A stretch of DNA of 63,089 nt from Thiomicrospira sp. (lineage in GTDB: Bacteria > Pseudomonadota > Gammaproteobacteria > Thiomicrospirales > Thiomicrospiraceae), in assembly GCA_030826915.1 (NCBI GenBank), contig JAUUDE010000030.1, positions 1 through 63,089 on the forward strand, given 5' to 3'. Positions 42,216 to 44,791 of the stretch are shown here, piece by piece; within the stretch, counting starts at the first letter, position 1; every line of letters starts with the position of its first letter. A program made the translations under genes and the position numbers. Under the pieces are notes generated by a model. The model saw only the letters and a list, made by a program, of their open reading frames with translations, did no database searches and was not told the origin of the DNA.

Positions 42216-42249
42216 TTTACAAAGCTACCAGGCCTGGTAACTTTGTAAA
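42216..42249. repeat. 34-bp imperfect palindrome centred on ACCAGGCCTGGT between convergent rlmB and the PfkB-Rieske gene
   Basis: tttacaaagctaccagg/cctggtaactttgtaaa; one mismatched pair. Confidence 0.9.
42227..42238. repeat. ACCAGGCCTGGT palindrome
   Basis: Exact 12-mer between convergent genes. Confidence 0.95.
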
Positions 42250-42258
42250 AGCTTGTTT

Positions 42259-43452
42259 CTAAACAATAAAAATGTCACCATTTTCATCTACTTTTACATC
42301 AATGCTTTGTAAAGATTCATCCCAACAAGGACCATCAATACAAACGCCGTCTTCAATATTAAAATAAGCGTCATGTACTGAACACTTCATGGTTTTTTCA
42401 AACGGATTGACATCAATTTTATAAGCTTCATCTAACGGTACATCTTGGTGCGGGCAGTTATTCACATAACAGCGTACGCTTTCTTCGTACTTTATTAGAA
42501 CTAAGGATTGACCTGAATCTCTATTTACAACCATTGTTTTTGCGTTGCTGAGTTGTTTTATATTGGCTAAAGCTTTGTTTGATTCTTGTTCGGCCATTAA
42601 ATTATCCAAGCCTGGTTGTTGACACTTTTTAGCAGCTAACTTATTAGCATAAATTACAGCCTCTTTTAAACTGTGCTTGCTAATTAAAGAATGAATTAAG
42701 CCTGCATTAAAGGTGTCACCAGCACCGAGAGTGTCAATAACGGGGCTGACTTTCTCAGCATTAATGTGTTCAACATCGCTATTAATAGCTTTGAACCAAA
42801 CACCATCGCTACCCCATGTACATACTGTATTTGCATTAGGTAATTCAAGACTTTCTAGTAAGGCTTGACCATCACTAAAGCCTTTAGCTTTGGCATAGTG
42901 GTGCGAAAATATAATTAAGTTTACATTAGGGAATAGGGTTTCAATGCCATCACGAGGTTTTTCAACCTCAAGTGAAATTGGTTGGTGTGTTAAAAACGTT
43001 TTGGCAATATTTAACATGCCTGGTAATTGTGTTGTATTACGTCCTTCAAAATGAAGCCAGTCATACTCTTCGATTTCAATCTTAGCGAAAAAATCAAAAC
43101 TCACTTCTGGAAGGTCACGATAATGCACAATAGTACGATGCCCATTTTGGGCATTTAATGTTACATAAGAAGAGGGGGTGCGTCCCTTAATGAACTTTTG
43201 AGTATGTTCTGTAGAAATGTTGCGCTCTTTAAGGCCGCTTAATAGTTGTTTGGATTCACTATCAGCGGCGATAGTGGTGCATATATCTGAAGAGTGTCCA
43301 AGTTGATTCAAAACATAAAGTGTATTATTAACATTGCCACCCGTCGCAATTTGTTTGTTTTGAGCTCGTAATTCTTCATCTTCTTCTGGATGGTGATCGA
43401 CGGTTAAAATGATGTCAAGAACAGCATTTCCAATCCCTAAAATTTTAGACAT
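42259..43452 (-). CDS. PfkB-family sugar/nucleoside kinase fused to a C-terminal Rieske [2Fe-2S] domain
   Basis: 397 aa; GNAVLDIILTVDHHPEEDEELRAQNKQIATGGNVNNTLYVL; VIDTLGAGDTFNAGLI; then CYVNNCPHQDVPLDEAYKIDVNPFEKTMKCSVHDAYFNIEDGVCIDGPC (CxH...CxxH). Confidence 0.9.
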   Translation of the reverse strand: MSKILGIGNAVLDIILTVDHHPEEDEELRAQNKQIATGGNVNNTLYVLNQLGHSSDICTTIAADSESKQLLSGLKERNISTEHTQKFIKGRTPSSYVTLNAQNGHRTIVHYRDLPEVSFDFFAKIEIEEYDWLHFEGRNTTQLPGMLNIAKTFLTHQPISLEVEKPRDGIETLFPNVNLIIFSHHYAKAKGFSDGQALLESLELPNANTVCTWGSDGVWFKAINSDVEHINAEKVSPVIDTLGAGDTFNAGLIHSLISKHSLKEAVIYANKLAAKKCQQPGLDNLMAEQESNKALANIKQLSNAKTMVVNRDSGQSLVLIKYEESVRCYVNNCPHQDVPLDEAYKIDVNPFEKTMKCSVHDAYFNIEDGVCIDGPCWDESLQSIDVKVDENGDIFIV

Positions 43453-43737: not shown

Positions 43738-43760
43738 TTTTCCACAAAAGCTGTGGATAA
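43738..43760. promoter_or_regulatory. Inverted pair of DnaA-box-like sequences
   Basis: TTTTCCACA-aaagc-TGTGGATAA; the right half is an exact reverse-complement TTATCCACA. Confidence 0.5.
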
Positions 43761-43992
43761 CTTTGTGTGTAAAGTTAATAAAACCGACTTAAGTGCTTTA
43801 TACTAGCGATAAAATATTAAAATGCTTAAAAAATAAGCAGATTAATACTTGGTAATATTAATGTGATTTTTTTCACTTTTTATGAGCATATAAAGACAAA
43901 AAAAGAAATTGTATAAGTAATAGTCAAAAGAAATTTCAATTGGATACAATCATTTAAAAATATAAAAATACTCTAAATAAATTAGGCTCATT

Positions 43993-44736
43993 ATGAATAA
44001 AATGAAACCGGCATTTAATGCGAGCTGCTTGAATTGTGGTCTACAAAAGATTTGTTTTCCTTCCGGGTTGCATAAAGTTGATATCAATCGGTTAGATGAA
44101 ATTGTTGAGCGTAAGTCGCCTTTTGAAAAAAACCAACATCTATATAAAGAGGGCGATAAATTTATTTCGGTTTATGCCGTAAGAGCAGGGGTGATTAAAT
44201 TGTACTCCTATTCTGATAAGGGAGATGAGGTTGTGCATGGATTTTATCTACCAGGTGATGTGATTGGTTTTGATGGTTTGGTACAGAATGAATATTTGTA
44301 CAATGCCGTTGCACTAGATTCAACCAGTGTGTGTAATCTCTCGTATGACGAGTTAAGTGATTTATCCTTAAAAATCCCAAATCTTAATCAACAGATGATG
44401 TCTGTAATGAGTAAGGAAATGCAAGATGGTCGTATGCACTCTGAACTGCTTATAAAACGTAATGCAGATCAAAGGGTAGCGCAATTTATTTGCAATATGT
44501 CTGAACGCTATAAAAATTGTGGCTACGCATACGATGAATTTCGATTGAATATTCTGCATAGAGATGTAGCTCTATATTTGGGCTTAACACCTGAGACAGT
44601 TTCGCGAATTTTAGCAAAATTTAATACCGATCGAATTGTAAGCTGGAAAAAGAAAGAAGTTGTTATTTTTAATGAAGAGAAGTTAAAAGAGGCGGCGGGT
44701 TTAAATAATTGTGAGGCTTGTAAAGAGTTAGCCTAA
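43993..44736 (+). CDS. fnr: FNR/ANR-type oxygen-sensing transcriptional regulator (Crp family)
   Basis: N-terminal SCLNCGLQKICFPSGL Cys cluster, additional Cys in SVCNLSYDEL, C-terminal HTH RDVALYLGLTPETVSRILAKF. Confidence 0.93.
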   Translation: MNKMKPAFNASCLNCGLQKICFPSGLHKVDINRLDEIVERKSPFEKNQHLYKEGDKFISVYAVRAGVIKLYSYSDKGDEVVHGFYLPGDVIGFDGLVQNEYLYNAVALDSTSVCNLSYDELSDLSLKIPNLNQQMMSVMSKEMQDGRMHSELLIKRNADQRVAQFICNMSERYKNCGYAYDEFRLNILHRDVALYLGLTPETVSRILAKFNTDRIVSWKKKEVVIFNEEKLKEAAGLNNCEACKELA

Positions 44737-44777: not shown

Positions 44778-44791
44778 TTGATTTCAATCAA
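44778..44791. promoter_or_regulatory. Perfect FNR box TTGATttcaATCAA
   Basis: Exact match to consensus TTGATNNNNATCAA, 41 bp after the fnr stop. Confidence 0.85.

Follow-up and report, generated by a model that had tools for sequence, protein, structure and literature searches.

What would a sugar kinase gain from an iron-sulfur cluster fused to its C-terminus? Rieske domains are electron carriers of respiratory complexes and oxygenases, and the question is raised by a gene in a stretch of 63,089 nucleotides (hereafter the window) from a Thiomicrospira genome, for which a sequence-only reading had proposed that a PfkB-family kinase and a complete Rieske [2Fe-2S] motif are encoded together. 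The gene is a single unbroken ORF, with an ATG start and its stop codon included (Table 1). Both Pfam domains were recovered above their cut-offs: the kinase portion aligns with positions 1-297 of the 302 in PF00294 (108.7 bits, cut-off 25.8), and the C-terminal portion matches PF00355 (42.9 bits, cut-off 20.3). All of the motifs singled out beforehand, GNAVLDI, GGNVNNTLYVL, DTLGAGDTFNAG, C-P-H, and C-S-V-H, are present in the protein, which, judged by its aligned residues, has an intact kinase active site and a full set of cluster ligands. Three terminator-like inverted repeats lie around the gene, against 0.9 expected.

Table 1. Features of the fusion locus (positions in the window).
Feature	Position	Strand	Remarks
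Fusion gene, ketohexokinase-type PfkB kinase + Rieske [2Fe-2S] domain (by sequence and model)	42259..43452	-	397 aa; kept in relatives
PfkB/ketohexokinase-like kinase domain, residues 1-284	42601..43452	-	Pfam E 4.6e-31
Short linker joining kinase and Rieske domains, residues 285-294	42571..42600	-	Pfam domain limits
Rieske [2Fe-2S] domain, residues 295-379	42316..42570	-	Pfam E 4.7e-11
GAGD catalytic motif, residues 243-246	42715..42726	-	D246 corresponds to KHK Asp258 by alignment
Cluster loop 1, C333-P-H335	42448..42456	-	Invariant in 18/18; found in 38/38 complete fused or adjacent Rieske domains
Cluster loop 2, C357-S-V-H360, then D-A-Y-F	42373..42384	-	bc1 Ser and Tyr replaced by Ala and Phe
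Proline-loop motif, C371-x-x-G-P-C376	42325..42342	-	Invariant in 18/18; found in 38/38 complete domains
Terminator-like inverted repeat separating the fusion gene from the convergent rlmB	42216..42249	.	15-pair stem
fnr-type regulator	43993..44736	+	Divergent neighbour, probably outside the system

The first explanation to be weighed is a trivial one, namely that two separate genes have been merged by an assembly or sequencing artefact, as the sequence-only reading had itself cautioned. A genome scan found the whole fusion encoded at 58-82% identity in 18 named genomes of the Thiomicrorhabdus/Hydrogenovibrio/Thiomicrospira group, related metagenome-assembled genomes (MAGs) among them, and the frame is intact in 17 of the 18 (397-406 aa), with all four ligands (C333, H335, C357, and H360) invariant in 18 of 18. 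Twelve more genomes of the same genus have the Rieske domain within an extended ORF of 325-432 aa, and carriers of the fusion include isolates with long contigs. Apart from the a priori possibility of an artefact, what speaks for one is a single broken frame, in Thiomicrorhabdus MAG NP51 (L018:5001-6195), which represents either a sequencing error or a pseudogene. The 17 intact named genomes and the 12 further long frames rule out two genes joined by error, and the probability left to an artefact is negligible.

The census of architectures suggested at the outset was run on 369 evenly sampled genomes of Gammaproteobacteria, searched for the kinase and for the Rieske subfamily. The kinase occurs in 102 of these genomes, fused in 9, beside a Rieske gene in 31, alone in 60, and at a contig edge in 2. 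The adjacent Rieske genes are on the same strand as the kinase, downstream in 30 cases and upstream in 1, with about 45-155 bp between the domain ends. The Rieske subfamily is found in 143 genomes and together with the kinase in 60, in 40 of which the two are adjacent or fused; the co-occurrence is significant by Fisher's test (p 1.5e-6 over the 369 genomes), a statistic that ignores relatedness. For 62 of the 102 kinases, including the 2 cut off by a contig edge, no adjoining Rieske gene was seen; 42 of the genomes concerned lack a Rieske of that subfamily altogether, so the kinase can evidently work without it. The Rieske subfamily in turn occurs without the kinase in 83 genomes, beside other genes. 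Beyond the Gammaproteobacteria, matches to the kinase in a phylum sample are weak, at most 72 bits; that sample also supplied one additional lone kinase (G569).

The fused state is scattered on the kinase tree and requires three changes, all forced by strongly supported branches, in a quick tree of 113 rows that has many weak forks and on which gain and loss are not distinguishable. The fused lineages are the Thiomicrospira group, a second set (G363, G269, and G158, with G146), and G055. This scatter is compatible with neighbouring genes that fused more than once, and the pair seems, on sequence grounds, to have fused about three times as a convergent 'Rosetta-stone' fusion. One could argue that such fusions are neutral, arising when an intervening stop codon was lost between co-expressed genes whose domains keep independent jobs; the tight packing of the adjacent pairs would make stop loss easy, and both the kinase and the Rieske domain have neighbourhoods from which the other is missing. 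About three fusions, 31 adjacent pairs, and retention throughout the Thiomicrospira group would, however, be unusual for an accident, and a neutral origin is unlikely. The adjacent pairs and the recurrent fusions argue instead that kinase and Rieske domain work together, and with good probability.

What, then, does the kinase phosphorylate? The ten best PDB sequence matches are all ketohexokinases (KHK; best E 4.3e-45, 157.6 bits), separated by 100 bits from the next match, sulfofructose kinase (57.5 bits). Consistent with this, an AlphaFold model of the fusion (pLDDT 86) has KHK as its first fold match (E about 1e-30, TM about 0.9 normalised by target, 34% identity). By comparison, the fusion kinase falls far short of the curated NCBIfam cut-offs for the ribokinase equivalog (85 bits against 299.65) and the 1-phosphofructokinase equivalog (37.7 bits against 292). 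The human and mouse enzymes (PDB 3nbv, 2hqq) share with it the PfkB fold, the GAGD base, and the fructose contacts, and differ in that identity is about 34% and that the Rieske C-terminus is found only on the bacterial fusion. In KHK, fructose is hydrogen-bonded directly by Asp15, Gly41, Asn42, Asn45, and Asp258, the last being the proposed base (PMC2651755). By alignment these residues are D13, G39, N40, N43, and D246 of the fusion protein, and they are near-invariant among 112 kinase family members, whether fused, paired, or lone; the equivalents of KHK Arg108, Glu139, Trp225, and Asp27 are mostly kept in the same 112, those of Glu139 and Arg108 in nearly every one. The kinase is thus, as far as sequence and model can tell, of the ketohexokinase type. 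With KHK as best match and its fructose contacts conserved, a ketose 1-kinase becomes the leading candidate activity, and phosphorylation of a ketose at O1 is moderately likely.

The identity of the ketose is less firmly drawn. Fructose or a similar ketose is an uncertain substrate, suggested by the conserved contact residues alone, and no 1-phosphofructokinase above the curated cut-off was found in 20 related genomes, so that what would consume fructose 1-phosphate is not evident. A prokaryotic precedent is the haloarchaeal ketohexokinase, which yields fructose 1-phosphate; in the parts of its description cited here (PMC11519228) it is a distant relative of eukaryal KHK, is encoded with 1-phosphofructokinase and an aldolase, whereas the Thiomicrospira relatives have no 1-phosphofructokinase above cut-off, and is mentioned without any Rieske domain. 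A link to sucrose synthesis was considered and rejected, as no sucrose-phosphatase match was found in the source genome or in several relatives, and same-genus genomes with those genes have another PfkB-kinase match adjoining them. The KHK-like pocket may mislead, the substrate being not a free ketose but, for example, a nucleoside or a phosphorylated or modified sugar, a reading compatible with any model of how the two domains are coupled. The missing 1-phosphofructokinase favours it, as does the other PfkB match beside the sucrose genes, which makes the fusion gene no obvious fructokinase. So does locus L154, where this type of Rieske is paired with another PfkB kinase that resembles adenosine kinase. 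Against this stand the retention of every KHK fructose contact tested and the 157.6 bits to KHK compared with 57.5 to the next PfkB structure, and a substrate other than a free ketose, though possible, has appreciably less than an even chance.

The type of Rieske domain bears on whether it could be a conventional electron carrier. Every one of the 38 complete Rieske domains, fused or adjacent, has the full cluster motif CxH-x21/23-CxxH, and in the same 38 the positions of the bc1 Ser and Tyr are held by Ala and Phe; Ser is the residue aligned with that Ala in Rieske proteins of the bc1 type. The disulfide cysteines that mark the cluster loops of the bc1/b6f type were likewise missing in the fusion protein, in which there is no extra Cys in the two loops. 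Folded alone (pLDDT 79), the Rieske part matches the carbazole dioxygenase ferredoxin, NirD-like proteins, and the toluene-4-monooxygenase ferredoxin, and in its family profile oxygenase ferredoxins ranked first. In the respiratory type the residue at the Phe position is exclusively Tyr, and oxygenase Rieske ferredoxins have potentials near -150 mV (PMC1847435). On this combination of sequence and model, the Rieske domain of the fusion is predicted to be of the low-potential oxygenase-ferredoxin kind. The CxxGPC motif is typical of the fusion's Rieske subfamily, and the conserved Cys that follows its GP may, by our own analogy, play the role of Cys-83, which hydrogen-bonds the cluster in one Rieske ferredoxin (PMC1847435).

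Two groups of known proteins invite comparison. NirD, the small subunit of nitrite reductase, shows weak Rieske-like similarity to the fusion and appears among the fold matches (4aiv, 3c0d), but the fusion Rieske differs by its pairing with a kinase and by a score below the cut-off of the NirD family (TIGR02378; 19.3 bits against 74.65, E 0.00095). The oxygenase ferredoxins CarAc, TmoC, and BphA3/BphF share the fold, the CxH and CxxH loops, and a Phe at the Tyr position of bc1 with the fusion, whose Rieske domain differs from theirs in being joined to a kinase, in having the additional CxxGPC motif, and in residing in a genome with no candidate oxygenase. The source genome, which is 86% complete, has two Rieske matches in all, the fusion and a 208-aa frame that is, judged by its size, probably the bc1 subunit; a third Rieske is absent from 12 of 13 same-genus genomes, the exception being G759, which has one of 139 aa. 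A search of the source genome for Rieske oxygenases, with diiron oxygenases outside its scope, returned no candidate at that 86% completeness. The notion that the fusion supplies the ferredoxin of a Rieske oxygenase was rejected on this basis and, since the only other Rieske in the genome is of bc1 size, the domain is probably not a donor to such an enzyme.

These observations bear on a third alternative, in which kinase and Rieske ferredoxin belong to one pathway or complex, the Rieske domain serving as electron donor to some third protein without regulating the kinase, and fusion provides stoichiometry and co-localisation. Such a tether would fit a domain whose fold and sequence are closest to CarAc, TmoC, and BphA3/BphF, and whose subfamily is also met in the absence of the kinase, several genomes having it next to a giant protein with cNMP-binding, rhodanese, coiled-coil, and FGE-like regions. 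The source genome offers no candidate Rieske oxygenase to receive the electrons, however, and no reductase or oxygenase gene recurs next to the fusion, whose conserved neighbours are rnr, rlmB, fnr, pal, and pepN. A tether for electrons alone is rather unlikely.

Elsewhere in the Gammaproteobacteria the neighbourhoods are of other kinds. A homologue of the giant protein lies near the kinase in 24 kinase loci, and the examples scanned have the order cNMP_binding, Rhodanese, coiled coil, FGE-sulfatase, or coiled coil followed by FGE-sulfatase. Giants beside the kinase, the Rieske gene, or both, a three-part neighbourhood of an unusual kind, include L060:9299-14569(-), L054:3366-7448(+), and L055:5580-7691(+), with about 20 more loci; the giant of L055 is without cNMP_binding and Rhodanese and keeps the C-terminal FGE-sulfatase. 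In several genomes the giant adjoins a Rieske gene with no neighbouring kinase, so there is a role for the Rieske protein that needs no kinase. Lone kinases have neighbours of their own: a zinc-ribbon-like gene at 27 loci and one contig-edge case, none of them with a Rieske gene, and an ankyrin-repeat-like gene at 20 lone-kinase loci (for instance L085, L074, and L078), suggesting a second functional context for the lone kinase. At L154:1327-2658(+), another PfkB kinase, which by eye resembles adenosine kinase, lies 9 bp upstream of a gene of the fusion's Rieske subfamily, with a dksA-like gene next in line; among 60 Rieske loci this was the one further case of pairing with another PfkB kinase. 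The giant, zinc-ribbon, and L154 contexts point to a partner module, though not to a particular pathway.

The arrangement with fnr was the other feature to which the sequence-only reading drew attention. The fusion gene is indeed divergent from fnr. All 18 named relatives share this layout, the fnr match lying 492-601 bp from the start of the kinase; in 17 of them rlmB is convergent with the fusion. The redox theme drawn from this neighbourhood is weak, however, as no FNR box is conserved in the intergenic region that the two genes share, and at the other loci examined the pair is flanked by different genes. Regulation of the fusion by FNR was rejected, no conserved box being found in the divergent promoter across 19 genomes. 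Elsewhere in the window, a perfect FNR-box palindrome (TTGATTTCAATCAA) lies at 44778-44791, between fnr and a pal-like lipoprotein gene, and sites resembling an FNR box with up to 2 mismatches number 99 over the whole window against 65 expected, an excess.

The intergenic region between the fusion and fnr, near-constant in length, gave no credible Rfam match to a non-coding RNA. It contains a near-invariant block at 43738-43772 (TTACnCACAAAGTTATCCACAGCTTTTGTGGAtAA on the minus strand), kept in 17 of 17 aligned relatives while its flanks diverge, with three DnaA-box-like 9-mers, two of them head to head. From its sequence the block looks like a putative DnaA-binding locus, perhaps of the datA or DARS kind. 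In two genomes of one contig each (G750 and G756) the locus lies about 31% from a contig end, a figure that is informative about how far it is from the origin provided that the two contigs begin at dnaA.

Taken with the evidence for partnership, the explanation that we consider best, at a probability of roughly 0.4, is a ketose 1-kinase coupled to a Rieske ferredoxin whose cluster state controls the kinase. The protein would be a cytosolic, ATP-dependent kinase of the ketohexokinase type with a small, low-potential Rieske ferredoxin covalently attached as its dedicated partner; the redox or occupancy state of the [2Fe-2S] cluster would control kinase activity, and sugar phosphorylation would then follow the redox or iron state of the cell. 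Among single mechanisms we rank control by the cluster first, no further redox partner being apparent in this case, although as a claim in its own right it is tentative and falls short of an even chance. The sequence-only reading, which had suggested redox-gated phosphorylation or an electron-transfer partner, is thus supported in part: the conserved architecture and the functional link stand, whereas gating is beyond what sequence can prove. That reading had recognised neither the ketohexokinase type of the kinase nor the widespread gene pair behind the fusion. A precedent for a Rieske-system ferredoxin in regulation is ThnA3, which acts on an iron-sulfur flavoprotein regulator, whereas the Rieske domain of the fusion is tied to a kinase (PMC4814904). 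It is doubtful that the cluster is specifically an allosteric redox or occupancy switch of the sugar kinase, in a two-gene module fused some three times and often accompanied by the cNMP-binding/rhodanese/FGE-like signalling protein.

No description of a protein combining a PfkB kinase or ketohexokinase with a Rieske domain was found in the literature covered, most subscription papers and all preprints lying outside its scope. Individually both domains are known; their combination, its repeated occurrence, and the gene pair are undescribed as far as could be checked. The Rieske domain is repeatedly tied to a ketohexokinase-like enzyme over a large bacterial group, including the sulfur-oxidising bacterium from which the window comes and its close relatives, which likewise carry the fusion. 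If the cluster does control the kinase, the redox or iron status of the cell would be coupled directly to sugar phosphorylation, and two families widespread in the Gammaproteobacteria, present in 102 and 143 of the 369 sampled genomes, would share a function.
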